Shown here: one piece after another, positions 5,893-21,763 of the stretch | Layout: every line of letters begins with the position of its first letter | How positions within the stretch are numbered: the stretch's first letter is position 1 | Made by a program: the position numbers and the translations under genes | IMG/VR virus record: IMGVR_UViG_3300037674_000253 | Location: 1-21,904 of that record | Direction: 5' to 3' (one strand) | Length of the DNA: 21,904 nt | Source of the DNA: a virus | The notes under the pieces: model-generated | What the model saw: the letters and a program-made list of their open reading frames with translations, nothing else | Told to the model about the DNA's origin: nothing | Database searches by the model: none

Positions 5893-8800
5893 CTAATGTA
5901 AAGTTACTGAAATACGAACGGCACCATGGGCGCCTCTACCACCACTAGCAGCACCACTACCACCATTCCCGCCAGTTCCAACCGTCACTCTTACAGAATG
6001 GTGAGAACTTTGTAGGGTGTAAGCACTTGGTGAGGAGAAGCTACCAGCACTACCGCCAACACCAAACCTATCGTCATCAAAGTCAGACCAAGATGCGCCA
6101 TCAGCACCACCCTCGCCTCCAGACGATACCGCGCCACCAACGCTACCAGTATGGGAAGTACCACTACTTGGGTTTGAAGGGGTTCCCGTACCGCCATCAC
6201 CTGTAAAAAATGTGTCAACTGGTGAGACGTCAAAATCATCACCATATCTAGTAGAAGCTACGGTTGTGTTATGTCCACCACCTGAACCACCGTTCGCTGT
6301 CCATGTTGCACCACTCACAACAGCACCATTACCATCTAAAATTTCTACTTTGGTTTGTCCACCGGTTACGCCACCCGAGGTACTACCACCACCTGCACGA
6401 GCTCCACCACCACCACCACCTGCACCAGATAGTTCAAAAGTTAGCGTGTCGTAAGCACTAGAGATAGGAAAGGTAAATTGACCACTAGTATTATATTCCG
6501 TTGGAACATTAGGCAATGCTGGTGTTGAAATAGTTGTTGAGTCAGCAAAATCTGCACCAACGATAGTTACACCACCATCATCCACTTGGATATAGCTTGT
6601 AGTGCTTCCTGCCAAGAACACGGGTATGTTGCTACCTGTTCTGTTTCCTAGGAAGACACCGTTTGTTGAATAATCACTATACTTTGTCTTCTTAAAAGTG
6701 AACGAGCCTGTCGATTCGCTAATGTCTAATTGCCCATCAACGTTTATCTTATCTACAGTTACAGAATCAACACTAAGGTGGCCAGCATCAATCTCTCCAG
6801 CCTGAATATGATTGCCTGAAATTGTGTCTGTAGTTATAATACCACCATTTATATAGGTTGTGCCAGACGAATAGATATTGTCAGCAACCGTATTGTCCTG
6901 ATTTGAGACCCAAGTAGAGCCGTCCCACCTGTATAGTTTGTTATGGTCATCACTGTCATACCATAGGTCGCCTTCATTCTCTGCTGTTGGTGATGTTGTT
7001 TGTCTAAATGTTTTAAGACCATCAAGTTCAACAGCGTTTGCGCCACTGACAATTAAGTGTGAAGCTCCAATAGAGGCGGCTGTAATCTTTCCGCCATCAA
7101 CTGTTGTTGAGTTTGTATTTACAGCATTTGCAACTTGAGAGGCTGAAATGCCTCCTGTAATACTACCTATTGAGGAGTATGTTGTATCATGAATATCTAG
7201 CCAAGCACTTCCATTCCACCTATGTAGTTTGTTACTATCATTAGTGTCTACCCATAAGTCACCTTCACCTTCAGCAGTTGGAGGATCATCATGATAAAAG
7301 GTTGTGACCTTTCCATCAGCAGTACTTTGTGCAGCTGCAGCGCTTGCAATAGCATCTGCGATACCACCGTCAGCAATAGCTTCCCAAGCGGTTCCTGACC
7401 ATCTATATGATTCATTGTTATTTGCAGCAAGGGTGTCTGTCCATAAGTCACCTTCATCACTAGCAGTTAAACTAGTTGGTGCAGCGTCCTGAAAGTAAGA
7501 GTTTATCTTTCCGTCAGCCGTACTCTGTGCAGTTGCAACATCGCCAATTACAGTTGCTAATGCAGCAGTAGTTGGTGCACCAATATAAGCTGGTGTGATT
7601 ACTTCTGAGACATTGCCTGTTCCGGTTATTAATAGTTTTCCAGAGGTGATAGCATTTGTTGCAATCTTGTCTGATATGATGGCATTTGCCGCTATAGTTT
7701 CAGCAGTTATTGCTAAAGCCTCTATCTTGTTTGTTGTGACAGCTCCAGCCTTAATACTTGAAGCCTCTACAGCGTCTACAGCTATTTCGCTTGCAGTGAT
7801 AGCGTCTGCAGCTATCTCACCTGCTGTGATACTATTTGCAGCTATCTCATTAGCACCAACAGATCCTGCCTGAATGGCGTTGGCCGTAACAGCGTCTGTG
7901 GCTATCTCATTAGCAGTGATAGCATCTGCAGCTATCTCGTTAGCACCTATTGCGTTAGCTTGTATATTGTTAGCAACAATAGTGTTTGCAGCTATCTCAT
8001 TAGATGTTACAGCGTTGTTAGCTATCTTATCTGAATTGATGGCGTTGCTAATAATCGCTGCTGTAGTGACTGCATTATCAGCAATCTTATCAGCGTTAAT
8101 AGAGTCGTTAAGAATCTTATTAACCGTGATAGCGTTGTTGGCAATCTTGTCTGCAATGATTGATGTATCTACAAGTAAAGCACCGTCGATGTAATCCACA
8201 GGAGCAACAAAAGATGCAGTGCCACTGACCTTTTTAAGTAGCCCATATAGCTTTCCATCATCGTATGTAATAACAATAGTTGTTCCATATCCGAACTCTT
8301 TAATAGTTGAATATGTTCTTCCAGTAAAAGAAGTAACAGCTGTTAAAGTATCTGTGTTCCACTGAGCACTATTAAGGGCTGGTGCATCTCTACCAGTTAT
8401 TGTGTAAGGAATTAGACCAAAGCCATTCTCCTCAACAGCAACAGGATAAACCATCCACGCTGAAGTTGCTCCTTTAATTGTGTACCTCTCTGCTACAAAA
8501 TAAGCATTATCTGGAAGGGCTAGGTTAGACGCAATTGACGTCCAAGTTATGCCAGTTCCCGGAAAGGTTGGGTTTCCAACGTCAACTAGTAGTTTAGTAG
8601 ATGTTGTATAGCTTCTCTCAAAAGATGTTGTAACACCAGTATAGTCGGCCAACTCCCATGTGTAATCAGTTGGATCTCCGGACTCATAAATACTTGTAGA
8701 GAACAAGTGCCCTCTCCAGTCTAACAGTTCTCCACCAGCATCATGCGGCTCCAATTGGAATCCCGCAGCATCTGCTTGTGATGGAATCTTACCGGTTGTT

Positions 8801-8961
8801 GAGCGATTAGTAATATTATCGGCATAGGCCGTATAAATAACAGGGCTTGTGTATTCCCAAACTCCGTCCTTCTGAACAGCAGTTCTTCCTCCAGTGGTTC
8901 CAGAGGATGTTTTAGCGTTTCTTAGTTTTCTCTGAAGTTCCGTTTCTGAAATCTTAGCCAT
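5893..8961 (-). CDS. Tail fibre / receptor-binding protein (1022 aa)
   Basis: The largest protein of the window. Residues 1-260 are a probable virion-attachment domain. Residues about 265-444 are a run of roughly ten-residue repeats of the type AITANEIAAD / NAINSDKIAN, as found in the beta-helical or coiled shafts of fibres and of J-like host specificity proteins. Three 'GDLW.D...YRW.GS.W' modules follow (about residues 491-690), then a further shaft (GNHIQAGEIDAGHL). From about residue 840 to the end the protein is glycine rich (LSGAGGGGGGARAGG ... GGRGAHGAVRI), the form of glycine-rich tip domains that present receptor-binding loops in several phage adhesins. The gene has AGGA upstream and is followed by a tail-chaperone type gene, which supports the role. 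Receptor unknown. Confidence 0.85.
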   Translation of the reverse strand: MAKISETELQRKLRNAKTSSGTTGGRTAVQKDGVWEYTSPVIYTAYADNITNRSTTGKIPSQADAAGFQLEPHDAGGELLDWRGHLFSTSIYESGDPTDYTWELADYTGVTTSFERSYTTSTKLLVDVGNPTFPGTGITWTSIASNLALPDNAYFVAERYTIKGATSAWMVYPVAVEENGFGLIPYTITGRDAPALNSAQWNTDTLTAVTSFTGRTYSTIKEFGYGTTIVITYDDGKLYGLLKKVSGTASFVAPVDYIDGALLVDTSIIADKIANNAITVNKILNDSINADKIADNAVTTAAIISNAINSDKIANNAVTSNEIAANTIVANNIQANAIGANEIAADAITANEIATDAVTANAIQAGSVGANEIAANSITAGEIAADAITASEIAVDAVEASSIKAGAVTTNKIEALAITAETIAANAIISDKIATNAITSGKLLITGTGNVSEVITPAYIGAPTTAALATVIGDVATAQSTADGKINSYFQDAAPTSLTASDEGDLWTDTLAANNNESYRWSGTAWEAIADGGIADAIASAAAAQSTADGKVTTFYHDDPPTAEGEGDLWVDTNDSNKLHRWNGSAWLDIHDTTYSSIGSITGGISASQVANAVNTNSTTVDGGKITAASIGASHLIVSGANAVELDGLKTFRQTTSPTAENEGDLWYDSDDHNKLYRWDGSTWVSNQDNTVADNIYSSGTTYINGGIITTDTISGNHIQAGEIDAGHLSVDSVTVDKINVDGQLDISESTGSFTFKKTKYSDYSTNGVFLGNRTGSNIPVFLAGSTTSYIQVDDGGVTIVGADFADSTTISTPALPNVPTEYNTSGQFTFPISSAYDTLTFELSGAGGGGGGARAGGGSTSGGVTGGQTKVEILDGNGAVVSGATWTANGGSGGGHNTTVASTRYGDDFDVSPVDTFFTGDGGTGTPSNPSSGTSHTGSVGGAVSSGGEGGADGASWSDFDDDRFGVGGSAGSFSSPSAYTLQSSHHSVRVTVGTGGNGGSGAASGGRGAHGAVRISVTLH
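5896..6445 (-). other. Glycine-rich fibre tip domain
   Basis: The last 180 or so residues of the fibre are dominated by Gly, Ser, Thr and Ala with GG and GGG runs, separated by more varied loops (STRYGDDFDVSPVDTFFTG and SWSDFDDDRFGVGG). The opening DTLTFELSGAGGGG and the closing VRVTVGTGGNGGSG are the usual borders of glycine-rich phage tip domains. The varied loops are the expected receptor contacts, by analogy with glycine-rich adhesins of T-even type phages. Confidence 0.7.
6896..7488 (-). repeat. Three GDLW/YRW modules in the tail fibre
   Basis: Three related protein modules lie at about 7366-7488, 7186-7290 and 6896-6998. Each runs PT...EGDLW.D, a short loop, then K/E-L/S-Y/H-RW.G..W. 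The loop between the two halves differs (TLAANNNES, TNDSNK, SDDHNK). They are separated by coiled-shaft sequence (ADAIASAAAAQSTADGKV), so the fibre alternates shaft and small knob-like modules. Similar modules occur in many phage fibres. Here they probably act as spacers or glycan-contacting knobs. Confidence 0.7.
7630..8170 (-). repeat. Decapeptide-type repeats in the tail fibre shaft
   Basis: About eighteen units of near ten residues, with pattern A-[IV]-x-[AS]-[NDG]-[EK]-I-A-x-[ND], run through this stretch. Within them the DNA shows recurring 'gctatctcattagca'-like 15-mers. The units near 7770-7990 are more alike than those at either end, suggesting recent unit duplication in the middle of the array. 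Confidence 0.8.
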
Positions 8962-11371: not shown

Positions 11372-11634
11372 CGTAAATTCTCCGTTCGATAGTTATGGAT
11401 AATCGATATCATTTGATCCAGCTTATCATCGATGGACGCAAACATTTCTTTATTATCCTGTTGAATGGTAACGATCTGTTGCTGTATATGCTTCTGCTCT
11501 GCCTGCATCACCGCAATGTCTTGCCTTATATCTGTAACATACATTAAGGCCCCAAATATTAAAGCCCCTGTCGTCAGTAGGTGGCTAATGCTTACCGATC
11601 TACTTAGGTGCCATTTATCTTCTCTAATGCTCAT
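11368..11634 (-). CDS. Small membrane protein with coiled coil (88 aa)
   Basis: One membrane segment is visible at about residues 15-33 (SISHLLTTGALIFGALMYV), followed by a heptad-like, Gln-rich region from about residue 36 to 82 (MQAEQKHIQQQIVTIQQD). A short N-terminal cytoplasmic part, one membrane helix and a long coiled coil is the plan of inner-membrane spanins (Rz-like), and small proteins of this form are common in phage lysis cassettes. No outer-membrane lipoprotein partner is seen nested in it, so the spanin reading is uncertain. GGAG lies four bases before the ATG. The end overlaps the next gene by four bases. Confidence 0.7.
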   Translation of the reverse strand: MSIREDKWHLSRSVSISHLLTTGALIFGALMYVTDIRQDIAVMQAEQKHIQQQIVTIQQDNKEMFASIDDKLDQMISIIHNYRTENLR

Positions 11635-12049
11635 AATTCTCCATTGGTGTTAGCATGAATTCTCTCTCGTAGTATTTTCTTATATCGGGGACCACACCGG
11701 TAAACGGTAACGGCAAACCCATCTTCTCTATAATACCTTTGTACTCATCTTCGCTGTCTTTGTATATTACGAAGTGAGGGTCGTTGTTATAAAGTAGGTC
11801 AGGGTCATTAATAAGCTCGTTAAAGTCTTCTTTAAAATCCTCTGATATCCACTGTGCATAGCACAATGCAACTACATATGACTTAGCAGGATACATCCAG
11901 CCAGTATCTTCTTTGGGTTTTTTAATGTAATCAACACAATCCCCAACTATCGTGTCGTACCTATATTGAATATCCTTATCTGAAAGATCATCTCCGAAAT
12001 CATCATTCATTCTGTGATACATCTCTTGTCTAATTTTCCAGTCCTTCAT
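11624..12049 (-). CDS. Hypothetical protein (141 aa) at the end of the radical SAM cluster
   Basis: An acidic, aromatic-rich protein without signal peptide or membrane segment (WKIRQEMYHRMNDDFGDDL at the N-terminus). It has two cysteines, too few for an Fe-S cluster on its own. No family is recognised. The start lies two bases after the last radical SAM gene, with GGAA upstream, and its 3' end overlaps the first small membrane protein gene by 11 bases. It could belong functionally to the modification cassette or be a small virion or lysis-region protein. Confidence 0.75.
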   Translation of the reverse strand: MKDWKIRQEMYHRMNDDFGDDLSDKDIQYRYDTIVGDCVDYIKKPKEDTGWMYPAKSYVVALCYAQWISEDFKEDFNELINDPDLLYNNDPHFVIYKDSEDEYKGIIEKMGLPLPFTGVVPDIRKYYEREFMLTPMENYEH

Positions 12050-12051
12050 AT

Positions 12052-12957
12052 TTATTCCATATGTTCTTTGTCGTAATAATCCAGCAACCCTATGTATCCA
12101 TTACAAGAGTTATCTAGATTCTCTACATATCTATAGTGCTCTGTCAGACAAGTTCCAAGATACTTACAACTATTGCATATATCAGAAAGCTCAGCCTTTT
12201 CACGCTCACACCATTCGAGGTATTCTTTAAAGTTATCAAGTTCTAAGAATAGCTCTTTGTCATCCTTGTCAAAATCTAATACACCAAACTTGCCATTAGG
12301 CGTGATGTATATATGGTCATCAGAGAATGCGTTGTACTCCTTCTTTAACGACTTTTCAATACTTCTTTTGTTGCCAAAGGTAAAGCCTTTTGGAACATCA
12401 CATTCAAGCCACTTTATCACAAAGTCTTCATAATCCTTATGAGTTACATTGAAGGAGTTGGCTTGATTTATAGAGTATGGTTTAATCTCTACGCTGTCCA
12501 AGTTACGCAATATGTTGAACTGAGAAACCATTGAATCAACATCCATCTTAATAACGTCTTCTGTAGCTAATAGCAATACAGAATACCTTTTAGGAGACAT
12601 TAGCATATTAGAGAATACTTGTGCATGTCTCTCTCTTCCGGTAAAGTCATACGACACCGAAAGGGATATATCATCAGCAAAGAAGTTATCACTAAGCATG
12701 GAGAAGTTAGTTATGATGTTTATCTCACCCTTATAGTGCTTCCTTATAGTCTTTTTTAGTTTTTTAAAATATGTTGAACTTAGTGCTCCTATTTCACCAC
12801 CATAAAGGTCTATATAGTCTATCTTGGGGACTTGCTTTAATAGGCTGTCCAAAACCCTTAAGTCTATCCTCTTTTGGTCGTTAAGTTGTTCAGGTGTTAA
12901 GTAGCAAAACTTACAACTGAAGTTGCAGAAGTATGAGGGGTTGATTGAGATATTCAT
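12052..12957 (-). CDS. Radical SAM protein 7 (SPASM/twitch-like, short)
   Basis: A 301-residue enzyme with C11-NFS-C15-KF-C18 (INPSYFCNFSCKFCYLTPEQ) and G53-G-E55 (IDYIDLYGGEIGAL). The C-terminus has a single auxiliary set, C261-X2-C264-X5-C270-X14-C285, preceded by a typical strand (HIYITPNGKFGVLDFD) in which the cysteine usual for full SPASM domains is absent. It is therefore nearer to twitch than to full SPASM proteins. The start overlaps the JmjC/cupin-type gene by four bases (ATGA). It is the last radical SAM gene of the cluster. Function by family: radical chemistry on a peptide or protein; exact reaction unknown. Confidence 0.9.
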   Translation of the reverse strand: MNISINPSYFCNFSCKFCYLTPEQLNDQKRIDLRVLDSLLKQVPKIDYIDLYGGEIGALSSTYFKKLKKTIRKHYKGEINIITNFSMLSDNFFADDISLSVSYDFTGRERHAQVFSNMLMSPKRYSVLLLATEDVIKMDVDSMVSQFNILRNLDSVEIKPYSINQANSFNVTHKDYEDFVIKWLECDVPKGFTFGNKRSIEKSLKKEYNAFSDDHIYITPNGKFGVLDFDKDDKELFLELDNFKEYLEWCEREKAELSDICNSCKYLGTCLTEHYRYVENLDNSCNGYIGLLDYYDKEHME

Positions 12958-13337
12958 ACTTCAATACTTAGTGTTATTGAGTCATACCTATTAACACCTC
13001 TATGAGGGCTACCTGCGGACACATATAAAGAAGATGTTTCATTAATCTCTACAGTCTCTCCGTACACCTCAAAAAACTTTGTACCTTCTATGCTAGCTAT
13101 TACTAGGTTCACATCGTCAGTGTGTGTATCGAATGAAGCGCTTCCAGCTGGAGAGATAAAAGCATGTACAGACTTTCCCCACTTATGAACTGACTCTAAC
13201 CCCTCTACCTTAACAACAAAAAACCCTTCACAGACCTTAATAACAGCCTCAGCTTTTGTTAACTCAAAATCTCTTCCATCATTATCGATGTAAAAGAACC
13301 TATTGCCAGCACTCAGTAACTTAACTTTTTTATTCAT
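12954..13337 (-). CDS. Minimal JmjC/cupin-type protein, putative Fe(II)/2-oxoglutarate oxygenase
   Basis: A 127-residue protein whose C-terminal half reads like the core of cupin_4/JmjC oxygenases: an H-x-D pair at H72-T-D74 (SFDTHTDDVNLV), a following 'EGTKFFEV' strand with K87 where family members often hold 2-oxoglutarate, and the distal histidine at H112 in YVSAGSPHRGVN, followed by SITLSIEV. In that family the HxD...H triad binds Fe(II), and members hydroxylate proteins such as ribosomal subunits. This protein is much shorter than the cellular enzymes (usually above 350 residues), so it may be a bare catalytic barrel or a non-enzymatic cupin. It is joined to radical SAM genes on both sides by four-base ATGA overlaps, which makes a shared substrate plausible. 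Confidence 0.75.
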   Translation of the reverse strand: MNKKVKLLSAGNRFFYIDNDGRDFELTKAEAVIKVCEGFFVVKVEGLESVHKWGKSVHAFISPAGSASFDTHTDDVNLVIASIEGTKFFEVYGETVEINETSSLYVSAGSPHRGVNRYDSITLSIEV

Positions 13338-14296
13338 CTTATTTCCATGCTAAGAAGCCTACCTTCAAGTTGCTTCATTTCAAAACAATGTCTACCTTGC
13401 ATATCAAACCTCTTATGGTCTTTTATAGTCTTAGAGCAGCCGTTGCACAGATTGAACAATGGGCAAGTAAAACACCAGTTGTTCATCGATAACAACTCAG
13501 GGTCGTCTCTAAAGTTGTCACCTATAGGATACTCTTTGTCATCGGCAAAAGATCCGCAAGTGTATTGGTCGGCTTCTGGTTGTATGCATCTGATACCTTC
13601 GTCACACTTTCTATTTCTTGGACAGGTTGTATCTTCTCCAGCCATAGACTTTATTATGTCTTTTGTGTTGTACTCCCACTCCTCTAGACCTTGGTCATAT
13701 ATATCTAAATATATACTATATATATCAGCAAGTAATAGTGGTTTACCTTGTGAGCCGGAGGCCATGGCATAATTGAGCTTACACTCTACACCCATCTTTT
13801 TTGCTAACTTAACATTGTCAATAGCTATGTCTTGCTCACCATCAACCACAACAGCGATAAAATCTGGTCTATAACCTATTCTATCTAACATTGAGTCTGA
13901 AACGCCCCAGAAGTCCTCTTCTGTGAACATAGAGTAGTCACCCTTGAGTCTGCCACCTCCGTATTGGAAAGATGTCGTTACGGCCATTCTAGGGTGTTTG
14001 AACAACTCATCCCACTTTTTAGTCTTATAAAAAGGCCATAGATTGGTTGTAAACGATATAGATGTGTCCATGTCGTGTTCGTCAAGATAGTCTATTATCT
14101 GATAGTAATATTCGGGCTTGACCATCAAAGGGTCTCCACCATTTACTATAACGGTTCTTGTGTCTGGGTGCTCGTCAAGAAACTTAAATATCTCGTTGAT
14201 ATCTAGTAACTTGGCACTATCTTCCGATATGTTTGAGCTACTACAGAAGGTGCACTTGAAGTTGCACAGCTCTGTCGGTTTTATTATTAAGTCCAT
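13334..14296 (-). CDS. Radical SAM/SPASM protein 6
   Basis: A 320-residue enzyme with C11-NFK-C15-TF-C18 (MDLIIKPTELCNFKCTFCSS) and a GGD variant of the SAM motif, G53-G-D55 (VIVNGGDPLM). The C-terminus is cysteine rich: C225, C231, C237, C247, then C275-X2-C278-X5-C284-X2-C287 and C304. The last pair is CX2C where the standard SPASM pattern has CX3C. The ATG has GAGG seven bases upstream inside the preceding gene, and the core motif at residue 11 rules out a later start, so 56 bases are truly read in two frames. The gene ends in ATGA overlap with the JmjC/cupin-type gene, arguing for coupled synthesis. Confidence 0.92.
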   Translation of the reverse strand: MDLIIKPTELCNFKCTFCSSSNISEDSAKLLDINEIFKFLDEHPDTRTVIVNGGDPLMVKPEYYYQIIDYLDEHDMDTSISFTTNLWPFYKTKKWDELFKHPRMAVTTSFQYGGGRLKGDYSMFTEEDFWGVSDSMLDRIGYRPDFIAVVVDGEQDIAIDNVKLAKKMGVECKLNYAMASGSQGKPLLLADIYSIYLDIYDQGLEEWEYNTKDIIKSMAGEDTTCPRNRKCDEGIRCIQPEADQYTCGSFADDKEYPIGDNFRDDPELLSMNNWCFTCPLFNLCNGCSKTIKDHKRFDMQGRHCFEMKQLEGRLLSMEIR

Positions 14297-15257
14297 ACAT
14301 TAACCTCTTAGGCGCGGGACATTGTGTGTCCCAATCTAGTTTGTAACAATCACCACCGCACTGTCCGAAAACTTCGCACGGTATGCATCTCGGGTCTATA
14401 AGAGCCTCTGTGGCTATCATACAGCCTCTTTTCTCATGGTTCAGTATACTGTCTATGTCATCACCTATGTGGGCATAATGACTAGTGGGTGCGCTATTAG
14501 GGCAACCGGCTATTGTCCCGTCTGCATTAATCGTAAACATTATCTTTTCACAGCCTCTGCAAAAGGTGGAGTTCCTGTTGCCGCCGCCCTCAAACTTAGC
14601 GTAAATCGATTCGAGAAGTACGTTATTAAAGTAACCCCTGTCATTAACCTGATGCATCTCCCATATCCAATCATCTATTTGGCGATTAGTTGGGAATATG
14701 TGGGGGTTTCTTTCAGCAGACCCATCGTGTGTGAGCCTCTCAAAAGCAACCTCTCTTAAACCTAACTCTTTAAACAAGGCTAAAACACCAGTGGGGCTTC
14801 GCTTTATAAGTTGCGTATTCATTGACACAAACAACTTTATATCAACACCCAAAGCAACTAGTAAGCGCACGTTATGTTTCCATAGGTCGTACTGCCTAAC
14901 ATTTGCCCATCGAATTCCCTCGTCCCAAGATGTTGCTATTCTACTTGATAATTCATTTTGTATGAATGACAACTTCTCTGGCGTGAGCTTGTGTGTGAGG
15001 TTAGTAGTAGCTCCAAAAGATGCTTTTTTATTCTTTTCAGACACAAGCTTGTAAAATGTACGCATATCCTCTAAGGGCGCTAAGAACGGCTCTCCACCAT
15101 GGTAGTCTATGTGTATCTGCTCATCTGCAAAGTTATTTACAAAGCTAGCAGTGGCAACAGGATCAAAGTATATCTTCCTCCCGTTTATACCACTAGTAAA
15201 ACAGTGGGAGCAGTTAAGGTTGCACGTCTCTGTCGTCTTTATGTAAAATATTTTCAT
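14241..15257 (-). CDS. Radical SAM/SPASM protein 5
   Basis: A 338-residue enzyme with C12-NLN-C16-SH-C19 almost at the N-terminus (MKIFYIKTTETCNLNCSHCF) and G54-G-E56 (IHIDYHGGEPFLAPL). The SPASM region is complete: C233, C236, C252, C279, then C291-X2-C294-X5-C300-X3-C304 and C313. The stretch KIMFTINADGTIAGCPN around C252 is the hallmark 'G.i..Cp' strand of SPASM proteins. Of the seven enzymes this looks most like a standard peptide maturase. The cysteine motif lies only 12 residues in, so the start at 15257 is firm and the 44-base overlap with the preceding gene is real. Its own 3' end overlaps the next gene by 56 bases. Confidence 0.93.
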   Translation of the reverse strand: MKIFYIKTTETCNLNCSHCFTSGINGRKIYFDPVATASFVNNFADEQIHIDYHGGEPFLAPLEDMRTFYKLVSEKNKKASFGATTNLTHKLTPEKLSFIQNELSSRIATSWDEGIRWANVRQYDLWKHNVRLLVALGVDIKLFVSMNTQLIKRSPTGVLALFKELGLREVAFERLTHDGSAERNPHIFPTNRQIDDWIWEMHQVNDRGYFNNVLLESIYAKFEGGGNRNSTFCRGCEKIMFTINADGTIAGCPNSAPTSHYAHIGDDIDSILNHEKRGCMIATEALIDPRCIPCEVFGQCGGDCYKLDWDTQCPAPKRLMYGLNNKTDRAVQLQVHLL

Positions 15258-16284
15258 TTGACTCCATGTAGTTGAACCACATTCTCATAACACAGTCAGG
15301 AAGATCTCTTATTCTGTTCTTCCAATCCCATTGAGTGTAACACCTAAACCCACACTTATTATACCATTTACAAGACAGGCAACCGTACTCGTCCATATAG
15401 TTCTGCATCATGGAGGTGTTGTCTTTTCTGTCTAAAGGAGTGTTAAAGTCAGACTCATCATACCTATCCCATCTACAATTAGATGTAGTATTGTCAGGAA
15501 AGATAGTGACTTTGTTTAGCGCCATGCAATGCATTTCATTGTTGTCGTTTCTTATTAGTCCAGAGAATGGAGCGATGTCTGGATAATTCTTATAAACAAA
15601 CTTTAAAAACCTAAGGTATAGCGAGTCAGATGGTATCTGGTGGTCCTCACCTTTATCTGGTATGTAGTCATCAAAGTAGAAGTTATCGAACTTTTCATAC
15701 AGGTACTCAAAGTAACTGTCTCCAGTCAAAGACATAGCCATAAACTTATGTATTGACTCTGTAGTGGCCACCATGTTTATAGAGATGATGTAGTCGGCAA
15801 AGTAATCTATATTCTTTGCATATGGGCCTTTAACAGGCCTTCCATCAAAGTCATAAGAAGCTATCAAGTAAGACGGAATTCCTTTTGCGACCATGTTATC
15901 AAGCATTGTCTTAACTAGTTCTCTTTTGGAGAATTGAAACGATGTAACCCATACAACCTTTATATCATAGTCGTGCTTTTTATAAACAACCATTATCTCG
16001 TCCATCAGCCTTTCATAGACTTCATAAAGGTGCGAGTGCCTATCTTGAAGCAACTCTCCACCAACCATGTTTATCTGAACAATATCAACAGAATCCCTAA
16101 GCTTTACAAGATGCTCCTCAACAAGAGATACCTTTGACAGTATCTCCTTCTCGGTTAAGCCGACTGTTGACTTTTTATCATGATGGCAAAAAGAACAATT
16201 AAGATGACAGTTTTCAAATAGTGTAAGCTCTATTTCTCCAATGAGGGGTCTTTTGTTTTCTAGTAATATTCTAGTATTGTTCAT
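15214..16284 (-). CDS. Radical SAM/SPASM protein 4
   Basis: A 356-residue enzyme with the classical radical SAM core: C26-HLN-C30-SF-C33 (IELTLFENCHLNCSFCHHDK) and G75-G-E77 (INMVGGELLQ). The C-terminus shows a full SPASM pattern of seven cysteines: C253, C270, then C302-X2-C305-X5-C311-X3-C315 and C331, able to hold two auxiliary [4Fe-4S] clusters. In known families this pattern belongs to peptide maturases (sactionine, ranthipeptide, PqqE, mycofactocin types) and anaerobic sulfatase-maturing enzymes. The upstream gap of 27 bases is the largest in the window and carries GAGG about ten bases before the ATG. The 3' end overlaps the next gene by 44 bases. Confidence 0.92.
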   Translation of the reverse strand: MNNTRILLENKRPLIGEIELTLFENCHLNCSFCHHDKKSTVGLTEKEILSKVSLVEEHLVKLRDSVDIVQINMVGGELLQDRHSHLYEVYERLMDEIMVVYKKHDYDIKVVWVTSFQFSKRELVKTMLDNMVAKGIPSYLIASYDFDGRPVKGPYAKNIDYFADYIISINMVATTESIHKFMAMSLTGDSYFEYLYEKFDNFYFDDYIPDKGEDHQIPSDSLYLRFLKFVYKNYPDIAPFSGLIRNDNNEMHCMALNKVTIFPDNTTSNCRWDRYDESDFNTPLDRKDNTSMMQNYMDEYGCLSCKWYNKCGFRCYTQWDWKNRIRDLPDCVMRMWFNYMESNENILHKDDRDVQP

Positions 16285-16311: not shown

Positions 16312-17508
16312 TTATACTACGTCTAACTCGTCCGTCATATACTTCAAGGCGTCTTCATTCCATAAATGACCACCCCTCTCTGAAGGGTTATACCTTGCCA
16401 ACACGTCGCTTGGCACTATCTCTTCATCTAAAGACAAGTCCATAGCCTTTATAGCTTCCCATAGCAACCTATTAGCCATAGAGATTAAATATGGAGAGTC
16501 TTTATACAACGGATGAATTGACAGGTTTTTAATTCCGTCAAGGATAAGACTGTTGCGTCTATCAAGAATTTCTTCAAAACTAAGGCCGGTTACATTTGTA
16601 CCTTCATTTGTTAAGAAGAACGCTTGCTCATGCAACATCACATTCAGGTGTGTCTCTGGCCCATCTTTACCCATAACAACTGTTAGCCCAATAAAGTTCA
16701 TTGAGTTACAGTTAAGGTTAGCCATAGACATTGTTGCCTTGTCATAATTATCATCATCGATAACCCTTGACAGGAAACTATTCCAAGCTAGTAGGTTTTC
16801 TTTCTGCTTGTGTCTTGGTGCTCTTGAGAATGCCGGGTTCATCTCCAAGATGGTTCCGTAATCGTTTAGAGACTTGTCAAGCATTTTGTTGTATTGTTCT
16901 TTTGATGTCTTTTTACCCACCAGTGCTGAAGACTGTAATGTCCATGACCAGTCTATCATTTTTGGCGTATTGTGCTTAAAGAAGTCAATCCTACGCATAA
17001 CAGCGTCAAAGTACTCTTCATTATTAAGCATTGTCTCAGGATTCTCAACAGGCATGATAAACTCCATAATCATGTCTTCCCTATAGTTCTCAGGGTTATC
17101 AAGAATCTTAAATATCTCTTTGAATTTCACATCATTAACAAAGTCAAACTTAGCTGGTGTTGCGATTCTAGCATTCTCATGCTCTCGCATAATCTTTTGT
17201 GTAATACTGTTGTTTAGAACATCTATAGTGTTTGATGCTGTAAAGAAATCTGTAGGACCCAATACGAACTCTCTTAGGTTTAAACCAGAGGCCTTTACGC
17301 CATCGGCAAGCCTTTGAGCTTCCTCCAGCAATGGTTGTGCCAAGCTTTTTGGCTTGTGCTTATCCACAAAACAACCTGTACACCCGTGGTCACATCCTGA
17401 GAGCAACTCTACACTTATCAGAACATCAAACTTAACTTGGTCTTTTAGTGCTAATGATTCTGGTCCCGAATATCTCATAGCCTTGCAATAAGATTCCTGC
17501 ATACTCAT
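16312..17508 (-). CDS. Radical SAM protein 3 (GPTD type, auxiliary cysteines lost)
   Basis: A 398-residue radical SAM enzyme with C39-DHG-C43-TG-C46 (VELLSGCDHGCTGCFVDKHK) and G84-P-T-D87 (FVLGPTDFFTAS). It belongs with the two preceding genes by these motifs and by general layout, but its C-terminal third lacks the CX2CX5CX16C set. The equivalent stretch, around IKNLSIHPLYKDSPYLI, contains no cysteine. It should therefore carry only the SAM-binding cluster. Two explanations are plausible: it is a divergent catalytic member that no longer needs an auxiliary cluster, or it is a non-catalytic or partner subunit for its two paralogues. The start ATG has GGAG seven bases upstream and lies three bases after the previous stop; a second ATG two codons later is possible. 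Confidence 0.88.
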   Translation of the reverse strand: MSMQESYCKAMRYSGPESLALKDQVKFDVLISVELLSGCDHGCTGCFVDKHKPKSLAQPLLEEAQRLADGVKASGLNLREFVLGPTDFFTASNTIDVLNNSITQKIMREHENARIATPAKFDFVNDVKFKEIFKILDNPENYREDMIMEFIMPVENPETMLNNEEYFDAVMRRIDFFKHNTPKMIDWSWTLQSSALVGKKTSKEQYNKMLDKSLNDYGTILEMNPAFSRAPRHKQKENLLAWNSFLSRVIDDDNYDKATMSMANLNCNSMNFIGLTVVMGKDGPETHLNVMLHEQAFFLTNEGTNVTGLSFEEILDRRNSLILDGIKNLSIHPLYKDSPYLISMANRLLWEAIKAMDLSLDEEIVPSDVLARYNPSERGGHLWNEDALKYMTDELDVV

Positions 17509-17511
17509 ATA

Positions 17512-18672
17512 TTATCTCCTACTCTCATATATCTCTTTCAACCTATCAAGGTCTTTTATATTATCTTCATGGACCAAGAATTTCTTCCTATATCCTGCCT
17601 TATCCGACTCTACACTGTAATCAGACCAATCGTACATACTATTTGCAGCATGGCTTAATGCATACTTGTTTTTTATCATATTCTCTTTTGGACAAATGCA
17701 ACTCTCGGTCTCTAAGAACTTCATCAGCATTGGAATGCCTCTTGAAGCGCAAGATGTTAAAAAGTCACAATTTGTACACTCAGTCTCGTGAGAGTACTGT
17801 TCTACAACTTTGTTGTGAAAGTCTTGTATACCATTGACTTTAAACATATCGTCGTAAATAGCCATATTCTCGTACAAGAACGGTGATATGTACCAGTCAC
17901 CCCTCTTAAAGTTCAAGACCTTAAAGTTGTTACCAGAGTGTGAATGGTCAATCATTATGTTATTAGTGCCTGAACTAGATGGCAAATTGTTAAAGAAGGA
18001 GTTGACCTGTTCTATCCTGTCGAGTATCTTCTTCTTGTTACCACTTCTCGCAACTGATGGTATTAGATCAAAGGTTGTGTCAAACATGCTTGTGACATGG
18101 TTGTGTATCCTTTGGTAGTCTATCTCACGGTCTTCTATGTTCAGTAAGAATGTATAGGTTATATCGTGTTCAAGATTGTCGCTCAAGATAGACAGTTTGT
18201 ATTTAACATCCTCTATATACCCGATATCCATTAACGTCTCAGGATTTGTTGCTATTCCTATTTCTATCTCTGTATCGGTATTAATGTTCTTTGTAATAAA
18301 GCTACAGAACTTAAGTATATCCCCACCCATAAGCGTTGTTACAAAGGCTAGTATTGGTGAGTTATCATTAATAGTCTTTAAAAGGTCTTTATTAGAAAGA
18401 ATATCATAAAAGTTACTAGATGATAAGAAGTCGGTAGGGCCGATTAGTATCTCATCTACTAATAAACCCTCTTCTGTCATACTCTTAACTCTAGACATAA
18501 ACCCTGCAAGGTCGCTGTCAGACGGGGCGTTGTTTCTTCTGTTTACAAAACAGCCAGAGCAGCTGTGTTCGCACCTATCCAATACATCCATTTGTATCTT
18601 AATCGCAGAGACAGGTTTGGTCTTTGTTTCAGAGGTAAGCTCGTAATACAGGTTATTTTTGATTATTGGCAT
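17512..18672 (-). CDS. Radical SAM protein 2 (GPTD type, one auxiliary Cys set)
   Basis: A 386-residue radical SAM enzyme with C34-EHS-C38-SG-C41 in IKIQMDVLDRCEHSCSGCF, and G78-P-T-D81 at the position of the usual GGE motif (DEILIGPTDFLSSS). The auxiliary set is C299-X2-C302-X5-C308-X16-C325, the same spacing as in the preceding gene, with an extra C327. The segments around it also match (CASRGIPMLMKF here, CSERNVPLYMRS there), so the two arose by duplication. It carries about 55 extra C-terminal residues. The start has GAGGT six bases upstream and overlaps the preceding gene by 20 bases. The SPASM/twitch-like tail favours a peptide or protein substrate by family knowledge. Confidence 0.9.
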   Translation of the reverse strand: MPIIKNNLYYELTSETKTKPVSAIKIQMDVLDRCEHSCSGCFVNRRNNAPSDSDLAGFMSRVKSMTEEGLLVDEILIGPTDFLSSSNFYDILSNKDLLKTINDNSPILAFVTTLMGGDILKFCSFITKNINTDTEIEIGIATNPETLMDIGYIEDVKYKLSILSDNLEHDITYTFLLNIEDREIDYQRIHNHVTSMFDTTFDLIPSVARSGNKKKILDRIEQVNSFFNNLPSSSGTNNIMIDHSHSGNNFKVLNFKRGDWYISPFLYENMAIYDDMFKVNGIQDFHNKVVEQYSHETECTNCDFLTSCASRGIPMLMKFLETESCICPKENMIKNKYALSHAANSMYDWSDYSVESDKAGYRKKFLVHEDNIKDLDRLKEIYESRR

Positions 18673-19642
18673 ACATATACCTCTTTGGGATTATACAAGT
18701 CTCAATACCACGAGACCTCATGTACAACGGAACGTTCCTTTCAGAACAAGATATTATCCATTGGCAATCTCCGCACTCAGTGTCACCAGTCAGTACTATA
18801 TTACTAGCTACATTACATGAGTTAAGGTCGTCAACTTCAAACAAGTTATCTCTCTGAAGAACCCCGTCGAATATAAACGGGCTTATAAAGAACTTGTTGT
18901 TATAGAACGAGTAGTTAGTACAACCATAAGAGTTAAACTTAGAATCAAACATTGTGTACCACCCTAGAAACTCTGGGGCTATCTCCTGACCTTCTAAGTC
19001 CTTTCTAAAGTTTACAAGCATCTCCGAGACCTTTCCAGTGTTATTGTTATTCACAAAGAAGTTAGGAACAACAACAATTGGTGAGTTGTATCTGTCATGT
19101 ATCTGATAGGCCAAATCATTATAAGATATCTTATCGAACATACCCTTATGATAGTTAACCCTGAACTGTACAGAACCCTCTTTAAATAGTCCTAGCTTTT
19201 TATCGTCTAACCCATTTAAAAGGTAGCTATTTATATCCACAACAATCTTAAAGTCTATGTCAGGCTCTTCAGATACATCCCACAACCTCTTGTGCTTCTC
19301 TTTGATAAGGTTGTAGTCCTGCTTTAACGCGGATGTAAATGAGATACCTGATATGTCATACAGCTTTTGAAGGTAACGGTCCTCTAAGACCTCTTCAAAG
19401 TTTATAGCATCAAATATATCTGTCGGACCTATTGTTATCTCATCAGGGTAGAACGCAGACTCAAGCAACTTGTTATATAGTATCTCAAGATTGAATGAGC
19501 CGTTCTTCCTTGGTATGAAGCAACCATTACAGTTGGCGTTACAGCCACTTAATATATCAGCATGAACCTCTGACTTTAGGAAAGACTGCTCTCTGTCAAC
19601 ACCACCAAAACCAGAAGCGCCATTGTTAAGCTGTGACTTCAT
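18653..19642 (-). CDS. Radical SAM protein 1 (GPTD type, one auxiliary Cys set)
   Basis: A 329-residue radical SAM enzyme. The [4Fe-4S]-binding CX3CX2C motif is C34-NAN-C38-NG-C41, inside EVHADILSGCNANCNGCF. Where classical members have the GGE SAM-binding motif after the second strand, this protein has G72-P-T-D75. The C-terminus holds a second set C290-X2-C293-X5-C299-X16-C316, as expected for a twitch- or SPASM-like auxiliary cluster, which in known families marks enzymes acting on peptides or proteins. Only one Met precedes the cysteines, so the start at 19642 is forced. It has a weak ribosome binding site and overlaps the upstream gene by 17 bases, so coupling is likely. It is a paralogue of the next gene: identical N-terminal Cys positions and identical auxiliary spacing. 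The substrate is unknown; the nearby Cys-His protein is the best candidate. Confidence 0.88.
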   Translation of the reverse strand: MKSQLNNGASGFGGVDREQSFLKSEVHADILSGCNANCNGCFIPRKNGSFNLEILYNKLLESAFYPDEITIGPTDIFDAINFEEVLEDRYLQKLYDISGISFTSALKQDYNLIKEKHKRLWDVSEEPDIDFKIVVDINSYLLNGLDDKKLGLFKEGSVQFRVNYHKGMFDKISYNDLAYQIHDRYNSPIVVVPNFFVNNNNTGKVSEMLVNFRKDLEGQEIAPEFLGWYTMFDSKFNSYGCTNYSFYNNKFFISPFIFDGVLQRDNLFEVDDLNSCNVASNIVLTGDTECGDCQWIISCSERNVPLYMRSRGIETCIIPKRYMYANNQK

Positions 19643-20324
19643 CTTCAGTTATTAACTCTTCTGGAAAGAGGCTTAACACAAAGTTCACTACACCGTTCTT
19701 ATATAGCATGTGGAAGAGGTCTCCGCCATGATACTTAGATGCCTTGTTAAACAAACTGGTATTGATGCTCTTGTTTAATCCTTTCTCTGATATAACAAGA
19801 GCTAGAGAGTCTAATCCATCAGAAGTGATACTTAAGATGTTAAGGCCAGTAGCACTCTTGTTGTGCTCGGAGAACGTCATATTGTCATTTATACAAATAC
19901 CAGAGTCTTCATTGTTATTTATTGTATCAACAATATAAGAGGATATTCCAGACATATCATCGATTAGATCATCGATAACATCAATATTATCAACTAAGTA
20001 CTCCTCAATATCCTTTGCAGTAAACATAATAAGGCCATCAACAATCTCGTGCTTTAGTCTAAACCTTACAATATTACTAACAGTTCTGGTTAGCATATGG
20101 GATGATACTATAAAGTCTAGCTTAATAAACTCTGTCACAAGATCGTTATCAATCTTATTAAAGGCCGCAGTAAATCCTGTGTTCGACAGATAAATTAATA
20201 TCTGCTTAGCTGTCAAAGACTCTCTTGATTTAACATAATCAACAAAAAGAACAAATGAATCGTCCTCTAGTTTCTTTTTGTATATCTCAGTAAGATCTAT
20301 TGGATTTAATGGTAATGTGTACAT
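19626..20324 (-). CDS. Hypothetical acidic protein (232 aa) of the radical SAM operon
   Basis: Start ATG is preceded by AAGGA six bases upstream and lies nine bases after the 349-residue gene. The product is acidic and rich in Asn, Ile, Asp and Ser, with no signal peptide, no long membrane segment and a single cysteine (in GICINDN). A mid region (AKDIEEYLVDNIDVIDDLID) looks helical and strongly acidic. The C-terminus (FHMLYKNGVVNFVLSLFPEE) is hydrophobic. I see no known domain. The last 17 bases overlap the start of the first radical SAM gene in another frame, implying translational coupling. Like its upstream neighbour it could be a structural partner, a substrate-presenting protein, or a virion component. 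The sequence does not decide between these. Confidence 0.75.
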   Translation of the reverse strand: MYTLPLNPIDLTEIYKKKLEDDSFVLFVDYVKSRESLTAKQILIYLSNTGFTAAFNKIDNDLVTEFIKLDFIVSSHMLTRTVSNIVRFRLKHEIVDGLIMFTAKDIEEYLVDNIDVIDDLIDDMSGISSYIVDTINNNEDSGICINDNMTFSEHNKSATGLNILSITSDGLDSLALVISEKGLNKSINTSLFNKASKYHGGDLFHMLYKNGVVNFVLSLFPEELITEDEVTA

Positions 20325-20333
20325 TATGATTCC

Positions 20334-21383
20334 TTATATTAGTGGCTCTACCGTCCAAAATATATACGGTATACGCTTCATGCGTCTGTGAAAGAACTCT
20401 ACATCCGTCTTATCGATTGAATCAACACTCGTACCCTCTAAGAAATTGACCAAGATAGGTAATGAATGCTGAAGGTCGAAATAGATGTCGTAATACTCCC
20501 AGCTCTGATGATTCTTTAACTTATCTACTAGTCCGTCAACAGTTCCAACATATGCTATAAAGTCTCTAAGTGTATATAAGACCAGCGTATTGTTCTCTTG
20601 ATACCAAATGCTTTGAATGAAGGATTCTCTAGTGTATGTCGTGTCACCTTGTGCAACCAAGTAATCAACAATTCCAACAAGCGGAGAGATAATACTTGAG
20701 CGTGAGATTGTGGACTGAATAGCCTCTCCCACTAATTTTGAAGAATGGATTGCGTACTTCTCAGCTAAGATGCCGGCAGATACTGTGTTCCCCGACATAT
20801 GGTCTTGCATGTAAAACAACACGTCATATGACCAAAACTTACCGGGTGCAATCGTTCCAGAAGACTCGTATCTATCTTCATCAGCAAACATAGTCTCAAC
20901 TGTTGAGCCTACTAAAGCTACTGTTAGAGCCGTATTTGTCGCAAACTCTATATCTCTTTGCATAACACGAGTAGAAAGGTCGGTTAGCACATCGCTTGTA
21001 TAGTCGGCAACTCCACTTAACAGCCAGTCAGAATACTTTAGATAAACACGAAGCATGTCCGTTTCATCTGTAAACAGCATAAACACCTTGTCAGGGTTAT
21101 TAAGATAGTCAAGATTATCAGCTTCTGCGTAGCTCTTAAATGAGACAATCTCGCTTATTCCAGCATCATCAATAATAGGATTGTACTTCTTTACTGTATC
21201 GTGCACTGTGTTTTTAAAACTACCTTCAAAAATAGTGTCATCACCATGTCCAACAATCACTACTTTTCTTTGTGATGATGAGTTTGAGTAAAAAGACGCC
21301 ACTTCTTCCATTAGGCCGTCAAGACCAAGTATGGATGATACATATTTTTTATTGTTTAAATAATAACAACTTTGTTCTATCAT
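20334..21383 (-). CDS. Hypothetical protein (349 aa) of the radical SAM operon
   Basis: The frame is open from 21434, but the likely start is the ATG at 21383, whose A is the last base of the preceding stop (TAATG) and which has a strong GGGGGAG ribosome binding site six bases upstream. This gives 349 residues beginning MIEQSCYYLNNKKYVSSILG; the upstream Met would read back through the Cys-His tail codons in another frame. The protein has alternating hydrophobic strands and helices (KVVIVGHGDDTIFEG near the N-terminus, then VFMLFTDETDMLRVYL), no signal peptide and no clear membrane segment. It has a single cysteine near the start, so it is unlikely to hold an Fe-S cluster. I do not recognise the family. 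Its place between the Cys-His protein and the enzymes suggests a partner, scaffold, or a virion protein of the same system. Confidence 0.75.
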   Translation of the reverse strand: MIEQSCYYLNNKKYVSSILGLDGLMEEVASFYSNSSSQRKVVIVGHGDDTIFEGSFKNTVHDTVKKYNPIIDDAGISEIVSFKSYAEADNLDYLNNPDKVFMLFTDETDMLRVYLKYSDWLLSGVADYTSDVLTDLSTRVMQRDIEFATNTALTVALVGSTVETMFADEDRYESSGTIAPGKFWSYDVLFYMQDHMSGNTVSAGILAEKYAIHSSKLVGEAIQSTISRSSIISPLVGIVDYLVAQGDTTYTRESFIQSIWYQENNTLVLYTLRDFIAYVGTVDGLVDKLKNHQSWEYYDIYFDLQHSLPILVNFLEGTSVDSIDKTDVEFFHRRMKRIPYIFWTVEPLI

Positions 21384-21763
21384 TACCTTCTCCCCCTTGA
21401 GGTGTGACAATTTGTATGACAACTGCTGTGGCACACCTGTGCGTTCCAGCTTACATTACCTATAGCCCCCTCTATCTCATCCACAGCAGAGCGCACAGTA
21501 TTAACTATAGATGCTGCAACATCGTCAGCGTCTGCAATCAAACCAGAACCAATTCCACTATCTAGGTCGCCAGTAAAAACAGAAGAGGCTGCGGAGGTTA
21601 AATTCCAGTTTGGACTAGTTGCAGAAGTAGATGTCCCACTATCGGCACCGGTACCCTGTGTCCATACGGTAGCTGTAATCGTTATTGTTTTGTTAAATGT
21701 TCTTAATTGGTCTCTAGCGTTATCTTTTAACCATGTGTCTAGTTGGCTGGCTGTCATGCTCAT
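21383..21763 (-). CDS. Cys-His repeat protein, candidate substrate of the radical SAM cluster
   Basis: A 126-residue protein of no family I recognise. Residues 1-30 look like a short folded or helical segment (TASQLDTWLKDNARDQL). Residues 35-75 are rich in Gly, Ser, Thr and Asp and look like a flexible linker. Residues 76-101 are a probable amphipathic helix (ADADDVAASIVNTVRSAVDE). The C-terminus carries three Cys-His pairs exactly four residues apart (C111-H112, C115-H116, C119-H120), followed by TSRGRR. The only cysteines are these three. Start ATG has GGAG six bases upstream; an in-frame ATG two codons later is less well placed. The stop overlaps the next start as TAATG. A long N-terminal part plus a short terminal Cys-rich repeat is the usual plan of radical SAM-modified RiPP precursors, and seven such enzymes lie downstream. 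Alternatives: a metal-binding tail, or an unmodified small head protein. Confidence 0.85.
   Translation of the reverse strand: MSMTASQLDTWLKDNARDQLRTFNKTITITATVWTQGTGADSGTSTSATSPNWNLTSAASSVFTGDLDSGIGSGLIADADDVAASIVNTVRSAVDEIEGAIGNVSWNAQVCHSSCHTNCHTSRGRR
21386..21433 (-). other. C-terminal CHxx repeat tail (three Cys-His pairs plus RGRR)
   Basis: These 16 codons encode CHSSCHTNCHTSRGRR. The three CH pairs use different codons (TGC CAC, TGT CAT, TGT CAC), so the periodicity is kept at protein level and is not a fresh DNA duplication. Spacing of four puts the Cys and His residues on one face of a helix. The Arg-Gly-Arg-Arg codons (AGG GGG AGA AGG) also form the purine-rich ribosome binding site of the following gene, so the basic end may partly reflect that constraint. 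Proposed role, inferred: the site modified by the downstream radical SAM enzymes. Confidence 0.7.

Follow-up and report, generated by a model that had tools for sequence, protein, structure and literature searches.

What do three neighbouring radical S-adenosylmethionine (SAM) enzymes do in a virus genome when they carry GPTD at the place where the SAM-binding GGE motif normally lies? The question is raised by the 21,904-base virus record IMGVR_UViG_3300037674_000253, analysed here over its whole length (the window), in which the enzymes P1 (18653–19642), P2 (17512–18672) and P3 (16312–17508) lie, with all the cassette genes discussed below, on the − strand. A sequence-only reading had described these three proteins without two neighbours: four adjoining GGE-type radical SAM enzymes and a small protein ending in (CHxS)3RxRR. 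With these included, the radical SAM enzymes of the window number seven: one from each of four GGE-type classes (A to D) and the three of the P1–P3 kind, which we call the GPxD family. P1–P3 are optional members of a widespread set of radical enzymes that probably rebuilds, by chemical change, the tail of a small fibre-linked protein, in many phages and in a few predatory-type bacteria. Specifically, we favour the reading that a phage cassette resembling those for ribosomally synthesized and post-translationally modified peptides (RiPPs) hypermodifies the C-terminus of this protein, which would be associated with the fibre and serve in host attack.

The proposed substrate, here called the CH protein (21383–21763, 126 aa), has the C-terminal end ...QVCHSSCHTNCHTSRGRR; it finishes in CHSSCHTNCHTSRGRR, of which the last 16 residues follow (C-H-x-S)3-R-x-R-R. 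It belongs to phrog_35144, a family with no assigned function that is matched by all 57 CH proteins scanned. A pattern scan of viral sequences returned at least 119 stretches with a motif of the (CHxS)3RxRR type. Note that the pattern itself fixes C, H and R in these matches and does not demand Ser. Among the matches listed, the motif forms the exact C-terminus in 116/119, and over 126 CH proteins the first Ser position is S in 124 and the second is S or N in 123, with no other Cys anywhere in 92 of them. Third codon positions within the core vary. The C-terminal position, the conservation of Ser and the variation of third codon positions all argue that the core is fixed at the protein level. 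The part upstream diverges widely and the tail is kept, for example in the phages SURPRISE13 of Burkholderia, pPa_SNUABM_DT01 of Pseudomonas, Atu_ph07 of Agrobacterium and Phosso of Sinorhizobium. As in known RiPP systems, an encoded precursor with a conserved core thus stands beside modifying enzymes. Many phages of the window type have two tandem CH genes (loci L008, L034, L035, L041, L049 and others); L036 shows one.

The linkage between this core and the enzymes is tight. Among the matches listed, a radical SAM gene of the cassette families is found at 110/116 viral CH loci, the remaining six being short or ending soon after the CH gene; locus counts throughout are counts of contigs rather than of independent events, and the window row appears twice in this viral linkage table. 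To avoid circularity we made a motif-free control search with the partner protein X232 alone (19626–20324 in the window), which returned 80 loci. The motif is present in 78 of them, the two misses having no upstream sequence, and in 77/77 of those with more than 500 bases upstream (adjacent in 76, elsewhere in the locus in one). The search is not fully independent, in that the pattern scan had already found the CH protein of 51 among these 78 loci, the other 27 being new. A search with the P3 group gave the motif in 48/49 loci. X232, classes A–D, GPxD and the A366/Y370 proteins are all missing from 34/34 control loci.

This co-occurrence bears on two other explanations. Phage fibre tips that carry iron on His residues are known, a fibre gene is adjacent, and Cys-His pairs repeated in this way could be a metal site; the CH tail might then be an unmodified metal-binding tip of three Cys-His pairs, with the radical SAM enzymes modifying another target such as the fibre. 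We regard this as unlikely, because X232 and the CH protein track together in all 77 informative loci, and because in Bdellovibrionota the core stays fixed though the neighbouring genes differ. The same fixed linkage to the CH core and to X232 makes it highly improbable that the genes serve the iron-sulfur or nucleotide metabolism of the host, which is how a passage of PMC5332604 reads a T4-like marine genome with 12 radical SAM genes beside iron-sulfur assembly genes. None of the window radical SAM enzymes reaches a curated NCBIfam cut-off (class A scores 59.5 of 340 bits for PapB and class D 31.6 of 180 for viperin), and functions as viperin, MoaA, NrdG or QueE were rejected on scores below the family cut-offs.

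Turning to P1–P3 themselves, GPTD does begin at residues 72, 78 and 84 (72–75, 78–81 and 84–87), as had been read, and CX3CXGC begins at residues 34, 34 and 39, respectively. The tail said to be identical in P1 and P2 is so in its spacing: CX2CX5CX16C starts at residue 290 of P1 and 299 of P2, with different residues in between, and is not found in P3. When the three sequences were shuffled, GPTD appeared anywhere in at least one of them in 112 of 20,000 trials. This rarity, and the recurrence of the motif across a family, rule out chance. We collected 88 GPxD members, forming one cluster, from 39 loci. The motif is GPTD in 77 of them, the exceptions seen being GPVD, GPSD, LPTD, SPTD and APVD; QPTD occurs in one aligned member from a named phage, outside the 88 counted. 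In a 61-row alignment (P2 numbering) the invariant residues are C34, C38, C41, P79 and D81, and conservation reaches 90% or more at G40, T80, N87, N178, P264, C299, C302, C308 and C325. Because the Pro and Asp are invariant and the flanking residue varies, the signature of the family, as read from the alignment, is x-P-T-D with T, V or S at the third place, not strictly GPTD.

The GPxD family thus keeps the CX3CX2C motif of radical SAM enzymes in all 61 sequences and has PxD in place of GGE, which is common in these enzymes and not strictly defining. The two motif types go together. Among radical SAM-like open reading frames at CH loci, CxxxCxGC pairs with GPxD in 77 of 86, with a further 4 matching both patterns, and CxxxCx[FHW]C pairs with a GGE-like motif in 204/204. 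C-terminal Cys ligands for an auxiliary cluster, as in SPASM/Twitch enzymes, are present in P1, in P2 and, as a Cys tail of the CX2C type, in 78/88 members, of which 66 keep the 5/16 spacing exactly. P3 has lost all four tail Cys by substitution, keeping CX3CX2C and GPTD; relatives at 89% and 80% identity (L266 and L267) share the loss, and one at 70% (L268) keeps all four.

Where GPTD lies in the structure can be asked of an AlphaFold model of P2 (mean predicted local distance difference test score, pLDDT, 81.6; predicted template modelling score 0.81). In this model strand 2 (residues 71–78) runs directly into GPTD at 78–81, and in most rows the distance from the cluster motif is 33–39 residues to GPTD and 34–41 to GGE in the sister enzymes. 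The proposal that GPTD occupies the GGE position is therefore borne out by model and spacing, and remains a prediction on those two grounds, since the local hhalign alignments cover the C-terminal Cys region only, so that a residue-level alignment of GPTD with GGE by that route was set aside. In SkfB, according to a passage of PMC6231123, the amino and carboxyl groups of SAM are oriented with the help of GGE. The predicted fold of P2, a partial TIM barrel, is that of the peptide-modifying SPASM/Twitch radical SAM enzymes. Its top solved match is the sulfatase maturase anSME (Z 15.4, root-mean-square deviation 4.4 over 297), followed by ChlB (14.5), TigE (13.1), CteB (13.0), SuiB (12.5) and SkfB (11.8). 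No meaningful PDB sequence match was obtained for the GPxD profile or for class A.

The match to anSME raises the possibility of formylglycine-type chemistry, in which the enzymes would oxidise core Cys or Ser to aldehydes, and these would form bonds with the host surface; class A also weakly matches the anSME family (36.3 bits). We give this little credence: ChlB, TigE and CteB lie within 1 to 2.5 Z of anSME, class A is closer to PapB at the score given above, and the anSME motif CxPxR is absent.

That the three proteins form a distinct subfamily agrees with the tree, in which 66 GPxD rows stand apart from 8 GGE-type rows of the cassette (support 98/96, with a warning from the tree program about long branches at the join of GGE and GPxD), and with the curated NCBIfam families, which place 0/46 GPxD members and give weak matches only, most often to NrdG and the SPASM domain (TIGR04085 matches 8 of the 46 weakly). 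The claim of an expansion by duplication within this phage lineage needs more revision. Duplication is real, and the copy number varies from 0 to 6 per locus. P1, P2 and P3, however, fall in separate clades of 9, 10 and 12 rows, each with 100/100 support and each holding orthologues from other phages, and Bdellovibrionota sequences (L133, L162, L146, L170, L174 and L177) branch among the GPxD clades; the split is therefore older than the window lineage and not confined to phages. Within each of the four GGE-type classes, too, the window row pairs with a bacterial row.

The GGE-type enzymes lie 3′ of P1–P3, with a cupin and the protein B141; X232, A366 and the CH protein lie 5′. Class B (15214–16284) has 7 conserved Cys besides the SAM motif; class A (14241–15257; phrog_1802) is PapB-like with SPASM-like Cys; class C (13334–14296) has 8 conserved Cys besides the SAM motif; and class D (12052–12957) has a Twitch-like CX2CX5CX14C. 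Classes A, B and D keep GGE, class C has GGD, and each class has its own further set of invariant Cys. Class counts here come from orthologue grouping, not from our first clustering, which merged distinct radical SAM classes. By this grouping there is one copy per locus of class A (67 in 67), C (38 in 38) and D (32 in 32), and class B comprises three groups of 42, 6 and 4, again one per locus. Of the 36 loci that extend 8 kb or more downstream, all 36 have X232, 27 have class A, 34 B, 30 C, 30 D and 31 A366/Y370; GPxD enzymes are present in 18, with more than one copy in 15. The total number of radical SAM genes per long locus ranges from 2 to 9, mostly 4 to 6.

These observations suggest a pathway with a constant and a variable part. 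The constant part would consist of classes A–D, usually one each, and X232, and would act on the near-fixed core CHxSCHxSCHxSRxRR, the C-terminal 16 residues of the CH protein. Variable tailoring would be added by GPxD enzymes, 2-oxoglutarate (2OG)-Fe(II) oxygenases, a cupin and a B12-binding radical enzyme, so that P1–P3 may be accessory peptide-modifying radical SAM enzymes. By analogy with the nearest relatives by fold, which do such chemistry, the likeliest reactions would be Cys-based thioether or C–C cross-linking and oxidation of the three Cys-His-x-Ser units. Among CteB, TigE, ChlB and anSME, the PDB entry titles name thioether formation for CteB only. The core would not be cut off as a free peptide. 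Rather, the CH protein may join, or sit at the tip of, a fibre encoded just upstream and help reach the host envelope.

The fibre itself is seen as follows. Where a gene precedes the CH block, the first such gene encodes a fibre of one protein cluster (cluster 4) in 59/87 loci; one example has collagen repeats (Pfam Collagen) and Peptidase_G2 above the cut-off. In L036, a virus identical to the window virus in shared genes, a fibre of this type directly precedes the CH gene, and two 2OG-Fe(II) oxygenases and one unmatched protein stand just before the fibre. The fibre C-terminal domain also occurs upstream of the block in Atu_ph07 (E = 4e-35) and Phosso (E = 7e-34), weakly in the bacterial loci L176 (4e-4) and L175 (3e-3), and without significance in bacterial locus L173 (0.14); a Peptidase_S74 fragment lies at the edge of L176. 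In all, three bacterial loci have a nearby gene that is either weakly related to this fibre or of the S74 fibre type.

Alternatively, the radical SAM enzymes modify the tail, and lysis releases a soluble RiPP that is no part of the virion, as a toxin against competing bacteria or a superinfection signal. The layout is precursor-like, with a core that is fixed at the C-terminus and an N-terminal part that varies, the fold of P2 is closest to RiPP maturases and anSME, and two ABC-exporter-like genes, so assigned by eye, lie directly beside the cassette of a Bacteriovorax genome (L173:390–3783). We nevertheless consider a soluble product unlikely: neither a protease nor an exporter was recognised in the window cassette, N-terminal parts of 110–290 aa are long for a leader, and a fibre adjoins in most loci, as counted above.

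Several points weigh against modification of a fibre-associated CH tail as we propose it. The contig of the window breaks off a short way 5′ of the CH gene, so that its fibre neighbour is known only through the identical virus L036, and no fibre of the cluster-4 kind was found adjoining CH in L004/L005-type jumbo phages. GPxD is absent from 18 of the 36 long loci, and hence cannot be essential to the pathway everywhere. Pfam and PDB searches recognised no RiPP recognition element (RRE) domain in X232 or A366/Y370. Finally, the motif occurs in only 6 of 368 Bdellovibrionota genomes, which makes a general role in predation unlikely.

The bacterial occurrences show the same association. Bacterial and archaeal genomes, when scanned for the motif, yielded 46 matches, 12 of them C-terminal; a radical SAM-like open reading frame lies near 11 of these 12 and near 0 of the 34 chance matches (Fisher 9e-10). 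Several of the loci look chromosomal, by eye, with ABC-ATPase and oxidase-like genes near L176 and a ribosomal-protein-like gene near L175, and others with phage-type neighbours (L139, L153, L163 and L172) may be phage contigs in metagenome bins. Full or near-full cassettes are present in the Bdellovibrionota loci L173–L177 (also L133, L146, L165, L170 and L171), some beside fibre-like and prepilin-like genes. We hold it possible, though with some doubt, that tailed phages and some Bdellovibrionota share a radical-enzyme line that builds a hypermodified (CHxS)3RxRR fibre tip for breaching the Gram-negative envelope.

The remaining members of the cassette are less easily placed. A366 (20334–21383) has 349 aa from an ATG sharing one base with the stop codon of CH, with a longer GTG start at 21434 in the program-made list of open reading frames, and has no Pfam or PDB sequence match. 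X232 has a confident model (pLDDT 91.3). No RRE or known fold was recognised in it: Foldseek matched nothing at E ≤ 0.001, and structural comparison reached no more than Z 4.0, across some 55 residues. A relationship to A366/Y370 was rejected (hhalign probability 0.3%), and a known Pfam family was rejected for either, with only scattered weak matches. Each of the two may act as a substrate adaptor or an assembly factor. The X232 frame starts with MSCHSNCH, MTCHAT or MTCHVS in some jumbo-phage-like contigs (L011:9542–10384, L106:37–852, L120:2884–3720), where either the CH motif is copied in part or the start is a false one further upstream. The cupin/JmjC-like protein (12954–13337) scores 23.8 bits for Pfam JmjC_2 against a cut-off of 22, and B141 (11624–12049) is a recurrent member (cluster 12, 18 loci). 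Near CH loci we repeatedly find oxygenases, a cupin and a radical enzyme of the B12 type. A protein of 556–563 aa with NPPHADW near its start, found in 16 CH loci (L100:961–2631, L121:3411–5102), looks by eye like a B12-binding radical SAM enzyme and is a possible C-methyltransferase. The SURPRISE13 cassette contains two genes annotated as dihydrofolate reductase (L004:18828–20005), and the window encodes, at 5893–8961, a tail-fibre-like protein of 1022 aa with a Gly-rich C-terminal part.

Among known systems, the cassette resembles most closely the SPASM/Twitch maturases (CteB, PapB, SkfB, SuiB, ChlB, TigE; anSME), which share CX3CX2C, a barrel and a C-terminal Cys-rich cluster region, have the gene of their peptide or protein substrate next to those of the enzymes, and supply the best PDB matches of P2. 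It differs in that GPxD enzymes have PxD rather than GGE and no score near the curated cut-offs, and in being viral, without an RRE found, and with about four or more radical SAM enzymes per proposed substrate. HxsABCD likewise combines His-Xaa-Ser in a putative precursor with radical SAM partners. Classes C and D weakly match HxsC and class A HxsB, below the cut-offs (33.5 of 267.9 bits for HxsC, 24.4 of 370 for HxsB); the CH core, in contrast, has a Cys before each His and ends in RxRR, and 0/57 CH proteins match Hxs models. For HxsA the comparison draws in part on one passage in PMC9062424.

A self-cleaving-chaperone fibre adjoining the cassette also recalls the MAT fibres of Bdellovibrio bacteriovorus, as described in passages of PMC10769870, and the S74/G2 fibres of phages, with Peptidase_G2 in the phages and Peptidase_S74 in one bacterial locus; here the cassette would instead modify a separate small protein, and the main text of the MAT paper contains no occurrence of radical SAM. 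Cupin, radical SAM and 2OG oxygenase genes like these are found in the jumbo phages FLC6, S13 and RP12/RP31 and in marine T4-like viruses, where passages of PMC8066314, PMC11898562, PMC5468394 and PMC5332604 list them singly as accessory or metabolic and name neither a CH protein nor a pathway. A virion proteome, in which the CH protein could show up, exists for phage RP31, according to passages of PMC5468394. Our literature search, over listings and passages rather than full texts, found neither the CH protein nor a RiPP-like phage cassette named. RiPP-like radical SAM maturation is known; what appears to be new, within the literature searched, is the CH-core pathway and a radical SAM subfamily that lacks GGE.

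The proposed pathway offers a common explanation for gene clusters in jumbo and marine phages whose radical SAM, 2OG-oxygenase and cupin members have been reported singly; with substrate, core motif and enzyme set all specified, it is testable in cultured phages. The GPxD family would show how SAM is bound when GGE is missing. If the CH protein does belong to a fibre tip, RiPP chemistry would have a new purpose, and, if the pathway as a whole is true, post-translational chemistry would be part of making the host-contact parts of some phages and perhaps of some predatory bacteria.

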